From a virus, in the IMG/VR virus record IMGVR_UViG_3300032083_004035, positions 1 through 40,029 of that record: 40,029 nucleotides of DNA; one strand, given 5' to 3'. Position numbers and translations under genes: made by a program. Of the stretch, positions 5,250 through 35,298 are shown one piece after another. The notes under the pieces are model-generated. The model ran no database searches and was not told the origin of the DNA. It saw nothing but the letters and a program-made list of their open reading frames with translations. Position 1 is the stretch's first letter, and each line of letters starts with the position of its first letter.

Positions 5250-5438
5250 ATGAAAACAACTTGCTCTAACCGTCTGTGTTCAAACGAAATTGAGCCGGAA
5301 CGTCTCGGAAAGCAGCGCTACTGCAGGGCGTGTCACGCAGAGGCGTCACGAAAACAGAGGGCGCGGAAGAAAGCCGAACGCGAACGAATTGAACAAGAGT
5401 TGGCGGTTTTGAAGCGGTTGCTTCGGGTCGCCGCCTAA
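5250..5438 (+). CDS. Small Cys-rich zinc-binding protein
   Basis: A 62-residue protein with N-terminal Cys5, Cys10, Cys26 and Cys29 (CSNRLC, then YCRACH), a typical four-Cys zinc knuckle, followed by a long, strongly basic then heptad-like helix (RKQRARKKAERERIEQELAVLKRLL) likely to dimerise as a coiled coil. Looks like a small nucleic-acid-binding protein. The 39 bases before it carry a CCACGTGG palindrome (5225-5232). Family not recognised. Confidence 0.65.
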   Translation: MKTTCSNRLCSNEIEPERLGKQRYCRACHAEASRKQRARKKAERERIEQELAVLKRLLRVAA

Positions 5439-6910: not shown

Positions 6911-7129
6911 ATGGTGAAGCGCCACTGCAGGGATTGTGACCACTATACGCCAAGCGTGCGGGAGGGGAAGGGGTACTGTTGCTATGCGGTTGATGAGCTG
7001 CCAACTCCGATTCGGCGCGCGCTTGGAATGGAAGACAACATGCCTGAAGTGCAAGAGTCCGATGCCATTATGTGTCCGTGCTTTCGGCTTCCGCGCTCAG
7101 AGCAGCCCCAAGAGGCAGGCCCCGCATGA
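6911..7129 (+). CDS. Cys-rich, probably zinc-binding protein
   Basis: A 72-residue protein with Cys6, Cys9, Cys23 and Cys24 near the N-terminus (HCRDCDHY and GYCCYAV) and CPC at about 55-57, a spacing consistent with one zinc site. It starts directly after the preceding stop, and its own stop overlaps the next start (ATGA). Third or fourth tiny zinc-type protein of this early block. Function unknown. Confidence 0.65.
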   Translation: MVKRHCRDCDHYTPSVREGKGYCCYAVDELPTPIRRALGMEDNMPEVQESDAIMCPCFRLPRSEQPQEAGPA

Positions 7130-7665
7130 CGGCTCTTAAGATAGAGGCTTCGGACTGGATCAGGTCTCCGGTTAATGCTGGGATCGCCCGCAAGGCTGTC
7201 GAGGCGGCGCGCAGGGCGCTTGTTTCAGAAGACCGGGACGCGAGCCCCCGCGAAATCGTTTTCTGGCTCCTGCGCGAAGCTGCGCAGACTGAGCGGGCCA
7301 TGAAGGGGCCGGGTCCTCGCGGCCATGTCTCTTGTATGCCGGAAGTATACCACACAAACGGCGAAATCTTCGCTACGGAAGTTGCGATGGTGGCGGATAA
7401 AATCGCCTATCCGCCGAAGGTTCGGGTGATTGTGACGGCCAGCGCAGCCAGCCGATACCTGGAGGTAACGAAGTGGCTTCGTTTCGTTCGCGGAAAGACG
7501 CTGGAGCGCGGCAAGAATGCGCTGTGGATGATGGCGAACAACTACCCGCCGTTCGTAATCAGCAGGCAGACGGGCTATGCGGAGGGCGCCCCGCAGCGAG
7601 GAGCGAAGTTCCGCCTTCTTGGGCAAATCGTTGAAAGGCTGGAGAAAGAAGAAATTTTCGATTGA
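7126..7665 (+). CDS. Hypothetical, possible DNA-binding regulator
   Basis: ATG 7126 overlaps the upstream stop as ATGA and gives 179 residues; a GTG at 7072 would overlap more and is not preferred. The region from about residue 60 (GPGPRGHVSCMPEVY, then WLRFVRGKTLERGKNALWMM, then SRQTGYAEGAPQRGAKFR) has the layout of a DUF6362-like protein with a sigma-region-4-like HTH at the C-terminus; this match is by memory of the pattern and is weak. It ends the early block and lies immediately before direct repeats and the noncoding RNA-like region. That position would suit a late regulator, but this is inference. Confidence 0.6.
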   Translation: MTALKIEASDWIRSPVNAGIARKAVEAARRALVSEDRDASPREIVFWLLREAAQTERAMKGPGPRGHVSCMPEVYHTNGEIFATEVAMVADKIAYPPKVRVIVTASAASRYLEVTKWLRFVRGKTLERGKNALWMMANNYPPFVISRQTGYAEGAPQRGAKFRLLGQIVERLEKEEIFD

Positions 7666-7669
7666 CCGC

Positions 7670-7701
7670 GAACGCGAACCAACGTAACGAACGCGAACCA
7701 A
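7670..7701. repeat. 13-bp direct repeat, candidate operator
   Basis: GAACGCGAACCAA occurs at 7670-7682 and again at 7689-7701, a centre spacing of 19 bp, close to two DNA helical turns. It sits between the stop of the preceding gene and the structured region. Two same-face sites of this type commonly bind a regulator. A TTGACC at 7662-7667 could be a -35 box but no good -10 is seen at 16-18 bp. Confidence 0.65.
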
Positions 7702-7745
7702 TCCAGAATTTGGAAATTCCCGTCCCCGCCAAGCGGGGCAGAGAG

Positions 7746-7899
7746 ATTCAAGAGTTTGGGCTAGCAGCCCTAAACGGGTGGGGAAACGCAGGCGCTCTTT
7801 CGGCGGAAGGCTTGCAGCCTAGGGAACAGTAAGTTGGAAGCCGTCTGAGAAGGGCCGGACCCCGGCGAAAGTCGGGCCCCGTGAAATTCAAGAGTTTGG
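7746..7899 (+). repeat. 14-base direct repeat inside the structured region
   Basis: ATTCAAGAGTTTGG occurs at 7746-7759 and 7886-7899. The first copy runs into a stem (GTTT-GGGCT paired with AGCCC-T-AAAC). A shorter related string (AAATTCAAAGA) occurs at 8338-8348 just before the terminator. Repeated single-stranded linkers of this kind suggest modular RNA structure. Confidence 0.7.
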
Positions 7900-8342
7900 C
7901 GGCCCCGCTTCTGGTAACAGTTTGCGGATAGTCGGGAATCCCCACGAACGCCCGACAGCCTGCGCGGCGCATAAGTGGGAACCGCCGCGCCCGCCAATCC
8001 CTTCCCCTAGGGGAAGCCAAGCCGGAGCTTTGGGTTGGGCATTTCCCGGCCGGGCTCCGGCCCCAAGTTTAGGCCCACGGGCCTTAAGAGAGGCGCGGCG
8101 GCGTGAGCTTTAAGCACGCTGAGAGTGTTTGCACCGACCTAGTACCGCCCGACAGGCCGCATGGCCGCGAACAAGCAGGAAGCGCACTGCTATCGGGTAA
8201 AGTCGGCAGGCGGAGTAGCGCCCGCCCCGCGCCCCCGCATAGACGGGGAGAGATTGGACCAGCGGAAAGGGTAGCGCCCTTTAGCGCAGTCCGGCGGCGA
8301 AAACCAAGGGATCGCTTCCCGCGAGAAGTAACCGCGAAATTC

Positions 8343-8382
8343 AAAGACCCCGTCGCACCTAACCCTGCGGCGGGGTTTCTTC
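8343..8382 (+). terminator. Intrinsic terminator closing the structured region
   Basis: ACCCCG (8347-8352) pairs with CGGGGT (8371-8376), and within it CGCA (8354-8357) pairs with TGCG (8366-8369); TTTCTTC follows. This is a rho-independent terminator layout and gives a natural 3' end for the RNA-like region before the gene at 8462. Confidence 0.75.
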
Positions 8383-8461
8383 ATTCCTAAGCCAGTGAGA
8401 AGAGCGAGCCGGACGCGTTTCCGGCATCCGATGCGGCTGAGGCCGCAGAAAGGAAAAGACC

Positions 8462-8785
8462 ATGCCTGCCATTCATGAGAATACCGTTTCCGAGTACAGG
8501 GTTCGCCCCGTTACGCGCTACGTTGTGACGCGCTATCGCTTCCTCAACGACACCGAGAGCCAAAAGGGCTCGTGCGGGTCTGAATGCCTTGGGGAATTCG
8601 ACCGATCCAATCAAGCTTACGCCGTCGCTTACGCGCTTGCGAGTGAGGAAACGAGAACCCGCGAGCTATCGCCCGGCGATGAGCGCGTGATGTACCCGCA
8701 AGAGGTTGCGGAAACGTCAGGCAACATTATCGGCGACGCTATCGAGTCGGTTCTTCCGCAAGCCGTTCTTGACGCAACGCGCTGA
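8462..8785 (+). CDS. Hypothetical protein (107 aa)
   Basis: ATG 8462 has AAAGGAAAAG at 8449-8458 as ribosome site. The first 35 residues are Arg/Tyr/Val rich (YRVRPVTRYVVTRYRF), suggesting a beta structure; the rest is acidic and helical. It contains two Cys (GSCGSECLG). No family recognised. It stands alone between the terminator at 8382 and the palindrome/promoter at 8793-8821, so it may be expressed from a promoter inside 8383-8450 that I could not identify. Confidence 0.65.
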   Translation: MPAIHENTVSEYRVRPVTRYVVTRYRFLNDTESQKGSCGSECLGEFDRSNQAYAVAYALASEETRTRELSPGDERVMYPQEVAETSGNIIGDAIESVLPQAVLDATR

Positions 8786-8792
8786 TAACGCC

Positions 8793-8821
8793 TTGATTTC
8801 ATACCACATTGTTGGTATAAA
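8793..8821 (+). promoter_or_regulatory. Promoter-like site with palindrome (or IS605-type left end)
   Basis: TTGATT (8793-8798), 17 bp, TATAAA (8816-8821): a good sigma-70-type match with ideal spacing. Overlapping it is an inverted repeat ATACCA (8801-8806) / TGGTAT (8813-8818), which could be an operator. Alternatively TTGAT resembles the target motif (TAM) of the ISDra2 type of IS200/IS605 element and the palindrome would then be the left-end hairpin of a TnpB-carrying element. Confidence 0.55.
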
Positions 8822-8895
8822 GGCGAACGCGCCGAAGGCCTGCCAGCCGACGACGCGCTCTTGACCGAGACTGAGAAAGCAGCCAACGGCCCGCG

Positions 8896-9966
8896 ATGAG
8901 CATCATCACTTACAAATTCCGCGTCAAGGACTCCGGCGTTAAACGCCAACTTGAGCGCATGGCAATCGCAACGAACCAGGTTTGGAATTTTTGCGTTTCA
9001 ACACAACGGGAAGCGCAGCGTCGCCGGCTCGGCGGAGCGGCGGCTCGCTGGCCCGCATATTTTGACTTTGACGCCATGACGCGTGGGGTTGCGCGTGATC
9101 TTGGGGTTCACAGCGATACCGTGGCGCGGGCGTGTAAACAGTTTGCGTATTCCCGCGACCACCACGGCCGGTGTCCGCGGTTCCGCGCTAGCGTCGGTCC
9201 TAAGCGGGCGCTGGGATGGGTTCCATTTCGAGTGAGGCACGGCACCAAGGTAGAGGGTGACGCCTTTCATTACTTGGGCCGCAAATACCGCTTCTGGAAG
9301 TCGCGAGAGATCGAAGGTGTTTGTAAAGGCGGCGCTTTCGTTCAGGACGCTCGGGGTCGGTGGTACGTCACGTTTCAGTGCGAAGTTGTGGACGACCTTC
9401 CCGCGCGCGCCGGAGCCATCGGCATAGACCTTGGCCTGAAAGACCTTGCGACGTGTTCTGACGGAACGAAGGTTCCGGCGCTGCAGCATTACCGGCGCTA
9501 CGCCGATGCGCTCGCCAGAGCCCAGCGCAGCCGAAATAAAAAGCGCGTTCGTGCGATCCACGCCAAGATCGCCAACTCGCGGCGTCACCATCACCATGTC
9601 GAATCCTCGCGCATTGCGCGGGAAAACAAGATCGTCGTCGTCGGCGACGTGAGCGCAAGCCGCCTCAAGAAAACGAGAATGGCGAAATCCATCTCGGATG
9701 CTGGTTGGTATGCGTTCAAGGAAATGCTCCGGTACAAGACAGCCAGAAGGCGCGGAGTATTTCTTGAGGTCTCCGAACGATTCACTACCGTAGCCTGTTC
9801 TGAGTGCGGCGCGCTCAGTGGCCCCCAAGGTCAAAAAGGGCTGCGAATAAGAGAGTGGAAGTGTTCCGAATGCAGAGCGTCGCATGATCGCGACGTGAAC
9901 GCTGCCCGGAATATTCTCCGCCTCGGGCTGGAATGCCAGCCTCCTGTTGAGGAAATCGCTGCTTAG
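8896..9966 (+). CDS. tnpB: TnpB-like protein (IS200/IS605 OrfB family)
   Basis: A 356-residue protein with the layout of TnpB, the RNA-guided nuclease family ancestral to Cas12: a basic N-terminal half, RuvC-I at GAIGIDLGLKDLA (Asp178), RuvC-II region KIVVVGDVSASRL (245-256), zinc ribbon Cys301-x2-Cys304 and Cys323-x2-Cys326, and RuvC-III SHDRDVNAARNI (Asp331/Asp333). The usual catalytic Glu of RuvC-II (pattern vvvEdL) is replaced by Gly250-Asp251, a state also known in some OrfB relatives, so cleavage activity is uncertain. No TnpA transposase is present nearby. There is no strong Shine-Dalgarno before ATG 8896. The guide RNA of such proteins usually overlaps the 3' end of the gene and continues downstream. 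Confidence 0.85.
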   Translation: MSIITYKFRVKDSGVKRQLERMAIATNQVWNFCVSTQREAQRRRLGGAAARWPAYFDFDAMTRGVARDLGVHSDTVARACKQFAYSRDHHGRCPRFRASVGPKRALGWVPFRVRHGTKVEGDAFHYLGRKYRFWKSREIEGVCKGGAFVQDARGRWYVTFQCEVVDDLPARAGAIGIDLGLKDLATCSDGTKVPALQHYRRYADALARAQRSRNKKRVRAIHAKIANSRRHHHHVESSRIARENKIVVVGDVSASRLKKTRMAKSISDAGWYAFKEMLRYKTARRRGVFLEVSERFTTVACSECGALSGPQGQKGLRIREWKCSECRASHDRDVNAARNILRLGLECQPPVEEIAA

Positions 9967-10010
9967 TCAGTGAAGGTATTACGAGACACCCCCTCAACTC
10001 AGACAGTGAA

Positions 10011-10039
10011 CCTCGGAGCGGACAGCTTCGGAGCCGGGG
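10011..10039 (+). other. Stem-loop downstream of tnpB, candidate part of omega RNA
   Basis: CCTCGG (10011-10016) pairs with CCGGGG (10034-10039) with one G-T pair; the 17-base interior contains GCT-TCGG-AGC. The 92-base gap between the tnpB stop and the next start is where reRNA/omega RNA scaffolds of TnpB systems lie. The end of the scaffold and start of a guide cannot be fixed from one sequence. Confidence 0.4.
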
Positions 10040-10058
10040 ACTATTTCAGGAGAGCGAG

Positions 10059-31251: not shown

Positions 31252-33270
31252 ATGGCTATCGCACCTCGCCTCGTAAAGAGCGCGAACAAGATTGTTGCGC
31301 GTGATATTCAGCCCGGAATGCAGCCGCAGTCTACGCTTACGCTCTCGGGCGGCGTGGCGGTTCCCGTATATGGCGCGCACGTCATTGCGGCCGAAAGCGG
31401 CACCACCGATAACTTCGACAGCGTTACTCTCACAAACCTGCGCGCGGGCGATGTTGTCGAGTGGACCGTAGACGCAGGCGATAGGATCACGTTCACCAAC
31501 GGCGTCGGAAACATTACGACCAGCACTGGCGCCAGCATCATTGCTTTGGCCGGCCAGACCGTTCGGACTAAAGTGAACGCTGCAGGCAACGGCGTTGTCG
31601 CCACACTTATTGACAGACAAATTCATTATATTGCGTCGTTGACGGCGTTAACGGCCAAAAGCACTGCAAACCTTACGTCCGGCTACATGCTTTATGTAGC
31701 AGAGCTTTCGCGCGGCGGTCTGTTTGTGTGGGACTCCTCCAATCTTTCGACGGAAGTGGGCTATGAGACAGCCGGGAACGAGGGCGTTTATTTTGCGCCA
31801 GACAGTGACGATACGGGCGCGTCCGGCGCTTGGGTTCGTCAGTCATATCGGGAAGGCAACAGTTTAAACATTGACTGGTTTGGCGCGCTTCCGGATGCCT
31901 CATCGGATAGCACGGATGCGGTGCAGGCTTGCATCGACTTTACGCAGGCGTCCGACAGGCGACCGATCCGCGTTCCTGCAGCACGATATCAGCTTGACGG
32001 ATCGTTGAGCGTTCCGCACGGCACGGCGATAGAAGGCTCCGGCTTCTGGTCTGAGGAAAGAAACTATTTCGGTTCTGCAGACTGGGACGATGCCGAGACC
32101 GACGGATCGATCCTTGAGTTTACCATAACGTCTGGCGTGTTCATAGAGTTGGGCGGAGACCGCGATCTCAATCCGTCGAGCTTTCAGTACGGCGGGCGCT
32201 TTGAAAAGTTGCTCATTATGGGGCCGGGAACGGGCACTGCAACAGCAGTCAAAATGAAAGACGCGCTTTGCTGGCATTACGAGCAGGTCGCTATTGCGAA
32301 CTCCTATCGCGGTCTGTGGTGGGATTTTGTCGAGGAATCCCGCTTCCATACGATTTCGTTCTGGGGCTGCGTCGAAGGGTTCCTGAGCGATGCGGACGAA
32401 GACGATTACGGCAACAACGAAAACTCGGTGTACGGATTCGAAGCGAACCGCTGCTGGTATCCGATCACTGCGATCAACGGCGAAGGCAACGCGTTTTACA
32501 AGGGCCTGCTTCAGCACACCCACCAGGACGCGATCCGTCTTACCAGAGACGATGTAAACGACGCCGCAAACCCGCTGAACATTCTCACGATGTTTGCGTT
32601 CTACGACTTCTGGGTTGAGAACGGATCGACGGGACAAGCCTCCGAGGATCCCACCAATACGCGCATGAACGGCGTGCTGTTCAGGATCAGCGGCGATAAC
32701 AACTACGGCCATACGTTCGACAATTTCCGGCTGTCGAACTCCATCTCTCCGAGCCTCACGGGCGGGTCCGATTGCGGATATCACCGCTTTAGCAACATTA
32801 TCAAGGTGTCCGGCCCGGCGGTGAACTTCACCATTCCTTCAACAATGCCAAAGTGTGAGGTGACTCGCCGGAAAAGCGTCGGCTTCGTTGATAACAGCAG
32901 CACCGGTGACGTTCAAATTCGGGACGATCTCACGCTCACTGTGACCGACCTTACGGGCGTGGCCAGCGCAACTGTGCACGCTGTGAAAACCGGCGGCACG
33001 GCGCACCTTCGCGTCATTGGAGCAACCGGCACCGGCGCCAGCGATATCATCACGATTTCCGGACTGACCGAAACTTACAGACCGCGAAAAAATACTGGCT
33101 TCTTCCCGGTCCGCGTCGTGGATAACAACGTCTACGGTTTCGGAATGTGTCGGGTCACAACGGCGGGCCTGATTGAGATTTACAAGGATGCGGCGGGCGC
33201 GTCGTTCGGATCGAGCGCGAATACGGGGTTCTCGACGTTTGACATTGATTTCGCTACCGAGGTGATTTAG
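31252..33270 (+). CDS. Tailspike with pectate-lyase-type beta-helix
   Basis: A 672-residue protein with AAGGGAACAACAG before ATG 31252. Residues 1-130 form a beta-rich head-binding-like region. Residues about 204-290 (LNIDWFGALPDASSDSTDAV, QACIDFTQASDRRPIRVP, then LDGSLSVPHGTAIEGSGFW) match the start of the pectate-lyase-3/tailspike right-handed beta-helix; the helix appears to run to about residue 540. The C-terminal 130 residues (NSSTGDVQIRDDLTLTVTDL onward) form a distinct beta domain, perhaps for trimerisation. Such spikes bind and often cleave host surface polysaccharides. The 3' end overlaps the oppositely directed sulfotransferase gene by 17 bases. Confidence 0.85.
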   Translation: MAIAPRLVKSANKIVARDIQPGMQPQSTLTLSGGVAVPVYGAHVIAAESGTTDNFDSVTLTNLRAGDVVEWTVDAGDRITFTNGVGNITTSTGASIIALAGQTVRTKVNAAGNGVVATLIDRQIHYIASLTALTAKSTANLTSGYMLYVAELSRGGLFVWDSSNLSTEVGYETAGNEGVYFAPDSDDTGASGAWVRQSYREGNSLNIDWFGALPDASSDSTDAVQACIDFTQASDRRPIRVPAARYQLDGSLSVPHGTAIEGSGFWSEERNYFGSADWDDAETDGSILEFTITSGVFIELGGDRDLNPSSFQYGGRFEKLLIMGPGTGTATAVKMKDALCWHYEQVAIANSYRGLWWDFVEESRFHTISFWGCVEGFLSDADEDDYGNNENSVYGFEANRCWYPITAINGEGNAFYKGLLQHTHQDAIRLTRDDVNDAANPLNILTMFAFYDFWVENGSTGQASEDPTNTRMNGVLFRISGDNNYGHTFDNFRLSNSISPSLTGGSDCGYHRFSNIIKVSGPAVNFTIPSTMPKCEVTRRKSVGFVDNSSTGDVQIRDDLTLTVTDLTGVASATVHAVKTGGTAHLRVIGATGTGASDIITISGLTETYRPRKNTGFFPVRVVDNNVYGFGMCRVTTAGLIEIYKDAAGASFGSSANTGFSTFDIDFATEVI

Positions 33271-34330
33271 CGAAAGCCACTTGCGCTCTTCTGGAGTGAG
33301 ACGCAGAGTCCGCCAACTCTATCAGCACGTCCGCAAGCGATGCCATGTCACGATCCATTTCAAAAATGTCAGCGCTGCCTGACATTGCGAATGGGCGGAA
33401 CAAGCATTCACGTTCTGGAAAGAATTGCGAGCGCACCCACTCGTTTGAATCGCTGAACGCGGCGTCATAGGCCGAGATCTGTTCGCTCGTAGGGTGAAAC
33501 CGGCCAAGTCCCGCAAAGTGTCGCTCCAGCGCCTGCAGAATCCGGCCATGCGCCGGGTTCTCTGTTCCATTTACAAACGGCGCAGTTTTCGCATTTACCG
33601 CGTTCAAGATGCGAAGGGCCGGTTTGGACAGGGATGCGTTTTCCGGCGGAGGCAACGTCATTCCGGAATCCGGAACGATCCCGGTTGCTGCGCAGAAATC
33701 CGCGATCAGCGAGCCGCCAGAAAAGAAGTCGCGGTCGAAAAGGCGCACGCTAATGTCTCTGGAACAATGGCTGGTCCATCGCTCAATCGTGCGCCGGTGA
33801 TTGCAGATGTTCTCATAATAGGCGTGCTTAGGTCCGGGAAAGGCTTCGTAATGAACGCCTGCCTTCATTCCTGTGGACATAAGCGAGGTCGCGGCTTCGA
33901 TAGGGTTTCGGATGTAAAGGACTATCGAGACCGTATCGAACAGTGAAAGGAGATAGCGCTGAAGGTTCTGGATTTCCGCATCCTTGCGCAAGCGAGATTG
34001 CAGAAACTCTGAACTAACGATCCAGGTATCGCAGCGCGAGGTCGCGACTTCGCGCGCAAACGCTTTTCTCCATTCGCGGGAGAGGCGCTTGCGTTCATCG
34101 GCAGTACGCACGCCCTTCCTTTCGAAGAACGGGTCTGGCGTGTCGGGAGCAAGCGAGGACAAATAGAGGCGCTTGTTATTCAAGTCGCCGAGCGCCGCAG
34201 GAATGGCAATCCCTTGGCGGTTTAGCCATTCCCTGTTTGCGCCCAGAAATTTCTGTATCGAGGTGGTGCCGGTCTTCTCGGTGCCGATATGCAGAAATAA
34301 GCGCTTTTTCCTGTTCGCTCCAAAAATCAT
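33254..34330 (-). CDS. PAPS-dependent sulfotransferase
   Basis: On the - strand, 358 residues from ATG at 34330; a longer start at 34387 would overlap the amidase gene and is less likely. The 5'-phosphosulfate-binding loop is HIGTEKTGTTSIQ (14-26) and the 3'-phosphate motif is IRNPIEAATS (140-149, Arg141 and Ser149), together the signature of the PAPS sulfotransferase fold. A later region (FHPTSEQISAYDAAFSDSNE) is in keeping with bacterial carbohydrate sulfotransferases. It would transfer sulfate from PAPS to a sugar or other hydroxyl. It is one of only two - strand genes and runs tail to tail with the tailspike gene, suggesting separate acquisition and its own promoter. Confidence 0.85.
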   Translation of the reverse strand: MIFGANRKKRLFLHIGTEKTGTTSIQKFLGANREWLNRQGIAIPAALGDLNNKRLYLSSLAPDTPDPFFERKGVRTADERKRLSREWRKAFAREVATSRCDTWIVSSEFLQSRLRKDAEIQNLQRYLLSLFDTVSIVLYIRNPIEAATSLMSTGMKAGVHYEAFPGPKHAYYENICNHRRTIERWTSHCSRDISVRLFDRDFFSGGSLIADFCAATGIVPDSGMTLPPPENASLSKPALRILNAVNAKTAPFVNGTENPAHGRILQALERHFAGLGRFHPTSEQISAYDAAFSDSNEWVRSQFFPERECLFRPFAMSGSADIFEMDRDMASLADVLIELADSASHSRRAQVAFAKSPR

Positions 34331-34370
34331 AAAGCGGATTACTGCAAATCCTTCAATGAAAGGCAAGTCC

Positions 34371-34793
34371 ATGAGCATCACGCTCATTTGTATTCATTGC
34401 AGCGCTACAAAGCCTTCTCAGGATATAGGCGCTGCGGAGATTGATAGCTGGCATCGGCAAAGAGATTGGGCCATGATCGGCTATAACGACGTAATCCGCA
34501 GGGATGGACGCCTTGAGCCGGGGAGGCCGTGGGGCGCGGCGCTCGCTCACGCCAAGGGATTTAACGAAGGGGCCATTGCAGTCTGCATGGTCGGCGGGAT
34601 TAGCGAAACAGGCGAGCCGGAAGCGAACTTCACACCGGCTCAATGGAAAACGCTTGACGCCTATCTTGCCTTCGCGAAGCTCCGGTATCCAGATGCTGAT
34701 ATTAAGGGGCATCGGGATTTGAACGGGGTGAATAAGGCATGTCCGAGCTTTAGCGTTGCTCGTTATCTACAAACGGGCGAAGTGGTTGCTTAA
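34371..34793 (+). CDS. Endolysin: T7-lysozyme-like N-acetylmuramoyl-L-alanine amidase
   Basis: ATG 34371 has AAAGG at 34359-34363 and gives 140 residues; the frame is open further upstream but only opposite the sulfotransferase gene. Zinc ligands expected from T7 lysozyme are His9 (CIHCSAT), His114 (GHRDLNG) and Cys124 (KACPSF); Tyr38 and Lys122 match the catalytic pair. The enzyme cleaves the bond between muramic acid and the L-Ala of the peptide stem. No signal peptide, so a holin is needed for export. The 3' end overlaps an HNH gene on the other strand by 44 bases. Confidence 0.9.
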   Translation: MSITLICIHCSATKPSQDIGAAEIDSWHRQRDWAMIGYNDVIRRDGRLEPGRPWGAALAHAKGFNEGAIAVCMVGGISETGEPEANFTPAQWKTLDAYLAFAKLRYPDADIKGHRDLNGVNKACPSFSVARYLQTGEVVA

Positions 34794-35298
34794 GATACTC
34801 TTTCGGCAAAAATTCTTCGCTGCGTTTCTTTGCTGCGGCAAGATATGCATCGGAAGCCTCTTTAATGGTGTCAAACGCTCCAAGATACTGCAATCGGCTG
34901 TTGACACTCAGGCACGCTTGAAAGCGGCCTGAAGGGAGTCTGTGAACACCTCTTGGGAGTCGGCTTTTGCGGCGGCGAATGTTTTTGTTGATGGCATTTT
35001 CAGATGCGCTGGCATCTCTCAGGTTTCGCCACGCGTTGTTGGTGTGGTCCATGTCCTTGTGGTCCACCTGTTGGGCTGGCCATGCGCCGGTCATGTAAAG
35101 AAACGCAAGGCGGTGCGCAAAATAGATTTGTCCATCAATCTTAATTTGACGCCTGCCTTTGGTGTCAATTGAGCCCGCAATGTTGCCTGCTTTAACGCAT
35201 CCGCCGCGCCCCGGCAGGGTTACTTTCCAACTGAAAACGCCGGACTCTGCGTTGTAGTTCAGCAATTCACAAAGTCGCTTATGCGTGAGTTCAGCCAT
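34750..35298 (-). CDS. HNH homing endonuclease with AP2-like domain
   Basis: On the - strand, 182 residues, with AGGAG five bases before the ATG at 35298. An N-terminal segment (LTHKRLCELLNYNAESGVFSW) is followed by the HNH core (GQIYFAHRLAFLYMTGAWP, QQVDHKDMDHTNNAWRNLRD, SASENAINKN) with the His and Asn residues of the fold, then an AP2-type DNA-binding domain (GVHRLPSGRFQACLSVNSRL, YLGAFDTIKEASDAYLAA). Free-standing HNH-AP2 genes are mobile in phages. Its end overlaps the endolysin gene and its front faces a 239-base gap, consistent with an insertion. Confidence 0.85.
   Translation of the reverse strand: MAELTHKRLCELLNYNAESGVFSWKVTLPGRGGCVKAGNIAGSIDTKGRRQIKIDGQIYFAHRLAFLYMTGAWPAQQVDHKDMDHTNNAWRNLRDASASENAINKNIRRRKSRLPRGVHRLPSGRFQACLSVNSRLQYLGAFDTIKEASDAYLAAAKKRSEEFLPKEYLKQPLRPFVDNEQR

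Follow-up and report, generated by a model that had tools for sequence, protein, structure and literature searches.

Among the noncoding RNAs described from phages, GOLLD and ROOL are the closest to the candidate reported here. GOLLD is a phage-encoded, multibranched noncoding RNA, with many examples longer than 800 nt. It is often located near tRNA islands and is characterized by covarying stems and a conserved 3' domain (PMC12286853). ROOL is a noncoding RNA of phages and prophages, several hundred nt in length, in which loop-loop contacts were described, and both conserved kissing loops and homo-oligomeric assembly are among its features (PMC12286853). Nothing in the literature was found to be closer to the candidate than these large phage RNAs (PMC12286853).

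The sequence studied was an IMG/VR virus record of 40,029 bases, the whole of which is referred to as the window. A first-pass annotation of this sequence had claimed a large structured RNA at 7702-8382.

Locus and coding status

The gene neighbourhood of the candidate was as follows.

7072-7665: DUF6362-like gene, 5' neighbour of the noncoding interval (match below the Pfam cut-off)
7666-8461, plus strand: noncoding interval of 796 nt, from codon-usage gene calling (ORFs inside it had no meaningful protein-family match)
8462-8785: ORF of 107 aa, 3' neighbour of the noncoding interval
8896-9966, plus strand: TnpB gene, about 500 nt downstream of the candidate

Genes were called by codon usage, with the contig's long ORFs as training set. 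The longer ORFs in 7666-8461 were strongly negative in this scoring, and the short ones were near zero with a maximum of about +6. No ORF inside 7666-8461 was matched in Pfam, and only one meaningless match (E 0.3) was obtained for them in PHROGs. The interval is noncoding, and the nearly 800 bases that had been described as lacking a credible gene correspond to these 796 nt free of coding signal. The same annotation regarded the interval as a gap in an otherwise nearly gapless genome; the gap itself was confirmed, but further gaps of 239-432 nt were left by the same gene caller.

The DUF6362-like gene covers most of its profile, and the 107-aa ORF begins like its relative in another phage record (L002). 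Both flanking genes therefore look complete, the latter by the L002 comparison, which makes an intron within a gene unlikely. A group I or group II intron was rejected on this ground, as no gene appears to be interrupted. The position between early and late genes, as had been claimed, was found again: ParB-like and replication genes lie on the 5' side, and terminase subunits and portal on the 3' side, with the small ORF, TnpB and an HslV-type peptidase gene also in between. No tRNA (ARAGORN) or tmRNA was present in the 40-kb window. No sigma-70-like promoter was detected in 7400-8900, where the scan covered this promoter type only, which may not be that of the host. The only minus-strand genes called were 33254-34387 and 34750-35298, and the second of them encodes an HNH_3 endonuclease.

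Predicted fold

Three features were defined from the predicted folding of the region.

7700-8385, plus strand: candidate structured RNA (MFE z -3.9, minus strand -0.8; third of 59 windows by z; 5' end approximate)
7931-7990, plus strand: two adjoining hairpins (7931-7956 and 7962-7990) with complementary loops CCCAC and GTGGG, from fold prediction
8134-8292, plus strand: most consistently predicted part (pair probabilities mostly 0.6-0.98 with three span settings)

The MFE z of 7600-8400 was -3.9, and none of 20 shuffles folded equally well. For 7700-8390 the value was -3.9 on the plus strand versus -0.8 on the minus strand, so the modest excess of stability belongs to the plus strand. When 690-nt windows of the same genome were compared on the plus strand, the mean z was -1.29 (sd 1.43) and the candidate reached -3.7 in that run, with a lower z in two of the 58 other windows. 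The lowest plus-strand z of the contig (-5.5) was that of the 690-nt window starting at 33811. The 250-nt sub-windows of the region were unremarkable (z -1.3 to about -2.1). Structure in the region is moderately beyond chance.

The predicted ensemble was diffuse, with a mean base-pair distance of 114 at a span limit of 100 and of 161 at a span of 700. A long-range helix (7788-7797/8123-8132) was predicted with long spans only and competes with a local alternative. In the part that was predicted most consistently, a three-way element closed by 8134-8138/8202-8206 would be followed by hairpins at 8233-8248 and 8256-8292.

A dozen or more perfect or near-perfect stems had been reported for the candidate, which proved weaker than claimed. 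Perfect hairpins of 6 bp or more numbered six, versus 3.2 +/- 1.9 after shuffling, and this number was reached in 33 of 300 shuffles, so the count is within chance. The GAAA-capped hairpin was present at 7861-7876. The proposed kissing loops, CCCAC (7941-7945) and GTGGG (7975-7979), do sit in the loops of neighbouring hairpins, but their match is within chance, and hairpin 7931-7956 was favoured only under limited base-pair span. Two 13-nt loops of such composition share a 5-bp complement with a probability of 0.076 (about 8%), and the kissing loop alone is therefore no evidence.

Terminator-like hairpin and repeats

The hairpin at the 3' end and the direct repeats were located as follows.

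7669-7701, plus strand: CGAACGCGAACCAA in two copies (7669-7682 and 7688-7701) at 19-nt spacing, just 5' of the candidate
7743-7759, plus strand: 17-nt repeat GARATTCAAGAGTTTGG, copy 1
7883-7899, plus strand: 17-nt repeat GARATTCAAGAGTTTGG, copy 2
8345-8378, plus strand: terminator-like hairpin of 13 bp, its stem ending in UUU, with CTTCATTCCT after it (pair probability 0.96)

No hairpin other than that at 8345-8378 combines 11 or more pairs with 8 or more GC on either strand of the contig, and the tail after this one is moderately U-rich. Among GC-rich terminator-like hairpins it ranks first in the 40-kb contig, in agreement with the intrinsic terminator that had been placed at the 3' end of the candidate, and it provides the intrinsic terminator expected of a stand-alone, terminated noncoding RNA. 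Whole-genome shuffles gave 0-3 hairpins of this quality (at least 11 pairs and 8 GC), so that where it sits, close to the end of the interval, counts for more than its existence. A generic terminator scan returned one site versus 2.6 expected.

The 14-base direct repeat ATTCAAGAGTTTGG that had been noticed was found at 7746 and 7886, and it extends to 17 nt with one difference. A 17-mer repeat of like quality appeared in none of 60 shuffles. Its 9-nt core GAAATTCAA is present again at 8336-8344. A third copy of CGAACGCGAACCAA with one mismatch is located at 5375-5388, about 2.3 kb upstream, and three matches were reached in one of 100 shuffles; the CGAACGCGAACCAA pair is possibly a regulator site or a site of a promoter region. 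A 197-nt internal duplication in the region was tested and was at chance level. Taken as a whole, the first-pass annotation holds in part: the noncoding interval, the direct repeat and the 3' hairpin are confirmed, but several other features that it had recorded as seen are weaker than it claimed.

Search for relatives and positional analogues

No match to the candidate was obtained by blastn in 50,697 GenBank phage records or in 72,556 plasmids. The paired repeat motif returned nothing from IMG/VR or from GTDB genome contigs, and looser motif matches in IMG/VR were dismissed as chance, being largely in coding sequence or of low GC. The nearest terminase relatives are about 53% identical. In 25 related whole phage records, only short chance matches occurred. 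A single-sequence covariance model of 8132-8294 recovered the window itself and chance-level matches only (53 sources, 27 records). A blastn search of one bacterial class (369 genomes) was likewise without a match, which is weak evidence in that the class may not be that of the host. When genomes were scanned for terminase, a single distant relative was obtained, in Pseudoduganella lurida. By these comparisons the candidate is an orphan at present, with no homologue in the collections searched.

Four terminase relatives (L018, L021, L022 and L024) contain noncoding gaps that lie some 1.7-2.7 kb ahead of the terminase gene and have a plus-strand z of -4.6 to -8.6. These gaps are mutually homologous and rich in direct repeats. 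They share no sequence with the window, and they were rejected as positional homologues for these reasons. They show that foldable noncoding intervals recur at this genomic position, without demonstrating a shared RNA. In L018 (5346-6235) and the same interval of the three others, GAGTTCACACGCGGGCGCTCG is repeated, and 26-nt tandem repeats of variable number occur in three of the four.

Other gaps were set aside as well. The gap at 2783-3395 of L040 is at least partly coding, as an ORF is present at this place in the overlapping L044. Elsewhere in L040, 1229-1613 and 1691-1775 are noncoding and contain spaced repeats of 38-90 nt (core CGACGAAGGAGC), then a 17-nt tandem array. The motif match in L130 (1500-2090) fell in unrelated GC-rich tandem repeats of about 150 nt each, containing GGGCGAAATTCAAGCG. 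In L002 (5986-6734), a homologue of the 8462-8785 ORF (60% over 50 aa) is followed by a noncoding stretch of 527 nt; this stretch (fold z -3.9) was not accepted as a relative, having no significant similarity to the candidate.

Interpretation

The best reading of the interval, which we hold with belief and doubt about evenly balanced, is a stand-alone noncoding RNA of the phage, structured and terminated. It is favoured by the lack of coding signal, the strand-specific z, the 3' hairpin, the 17-nt repeat and the complete flanking genes. It is weakened by the lack of a homologue, the two of 58 windows with lower z, the unremarkable 250-nt sub-windows, the stems and kissing loop that are within chance, the diffuse ensemble and the lack of a sigma-70-like promoter. 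We infer that the segment is transcribed, takes up a particular fold and acts as RNA. Rightward transcription would begin at a putative promoter near the 5' end, or would arrive by read-through from the early genes, and would give a noncoding phage RNA some 600-690 nt long with a multibranched fold, whose 3' end would be formed at hairpin 8345-8378. Such an RNA would most likely be stand-alone and structural, and would be made around the early-to-late switch. It could even represent an undescribed class of large (600-690 nt) structured RNAs of phages, expressed between the early and the late genes, in which repeated single-stranded GARATTCAAGAG joints organise or multimerise the molecule, a proposal that we regard as speculative and rather unlikely.

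The reading that competes most with it is a boundary between early and late transcription, in which an early terminator and late promoter or regulator sites occupy the interval and no large functional RNA is made; the long 5' part would then be an untranslated leader or spacer, with fold stability mostly from its GC content. We judge it somewhat unlikely, though plausible. Its attraction lies in the location between early and late genes and in the strong terminator-like hairpin, and in addition the 14- and 17-nt repeats could be protein-binding sites, the stem count is within chance, and the terminase relatives have noncoding gaps of unrelated sequence at the same place. Against these stand a length of 796 nt, which is long for a boundary in a compact genome, the strand-specific fold stability, and the lack of a recognisable promoter in the sigma-70-like scan of 7400-8900.

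A DNA-level site composed of repeats and inverted repeats, such as a replication origin, a partition site or a packaging site, would account for the direct repeats at 7669/7688 and 7743/7883, and ParB-like genes and a DnaA-C-like protein are encoded elsewhere in the phage. However, each direct repeat in 7666-8461 has two copies only and no tandem array was found there, and the stability differs between strands, a difference that DNA hairpins would not show, which makes such a site improbable. The interval might also be a decayed or recently acquired functionless segment (a pseudogene or a mobile-element remnant), as its orphan sequence and the mobile genes of this phage (TnpB, HNH endonuclease) would allow, but no fragment gave a Pfam match or a convincing PHROGs match, and terminator and fold are intact; we consider this very improbable.

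The terminated, structured RNA thus remains the preferred reading. Only a small number of large RNAs have been described from phages, with functions still open, and one more independent case would help to decide on a common role in infection, provided that transcript and fold are confirmed. At present the candidate is a single orphan sequence for which structure is moderately supported, and is a lead rather than a discovery.

TnpB downstream of the candidate

In TnpB, the repositioned RuvC glutamate is defined by the pattern E-x6-CxxC (PMC10711439). The phage TnpB (8896-9966) conforms to this pattern, having the repositioned RuvC glutamate (SERFTTVACSEC, DLG motif). With a z of -5.45, 9751-10058 at the tnpB 3' end was the most stable of the 250-nt stretches in the window, and no match was given there by Rfam. 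Guide RNAs of TnpB derive from the gene's 3' end; in this phage, 9751-10058 is probably the guide RNA, judged from its position and predicted stability.

That the candidate is itself the guide (omega/re) RNA of this TnpB is hardly credible: the gene shares the strand of the candidate and begins about 500 nt further downstream, but guide RNAs arise from the gene 3' end, which is the highly foldable part here, while the candidate lies upstream of tnpB with its own terminator-like hairpin and a complete ORF in between, and no match to 7700-8380 was seen in the examined DNA of TnpB relatives of 56-65% identity. As tnpB has a stable 3' end of its own and no trace of 7700-8380 was seen in the examined DNA of those relatives, the candidate was treated as independent of TnpB, as it appears to be.

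Comparison with known systems

Rfam covariance models (cmscan, 4227 families) gave no match at gathering score in the window. When 7500-8900 was searched with E up to 10, neither GOLLD, ROOL nor any other family was returned, and only weak terminator-like matches appeared; the best sub-threshold ones, at the terminator (ar14, E 0.12; CrfA, E 1.7), were read as generic terminator similarity. Covariance models of HEARO, OLE, RNase P, tmRNA and group I/II introns were also without a match. The suggestion that the candidate is a diverged GOLLD or ROOL is therefore unsupported, as there is neither an Rfam match nor a tRNA in the window and the loop contact is within chance. Of the earlier interpretation, a noncoding, terminated and probably structured transcript is kept as the best reading, but not the membership of GOLLD or ROOL.

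Other known RNAs were compared as well. The lambda-type 6S/late leader RNA and the put-type antiterminator RNA are noncoding, terminated and located ahead of late genes, as the candidate would be, but are about 70-200 nt long; no sequence match to them was found, nor was a gene for an antiterminator recognised in this phage. The omega/reRNA of TnpB overlaps the tnpB 3' end, whereas the candidate is near a TnpB gene but upstream of it.

Unlike GOLLD, the candidate has no Rfam match, no nearby tRNA and no recognised conserved 3' domain, but both are large and phage-encoded, and the candidate is multibranched and noncoding by prediction. It resembles ROOL in size and in its phage setting, while it has no Rfam match and the single loop contact proposed for it does not exceed chance. 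The candidate would thus be an RNA in the style of GOLLD and ROOL, and a member of neither family.
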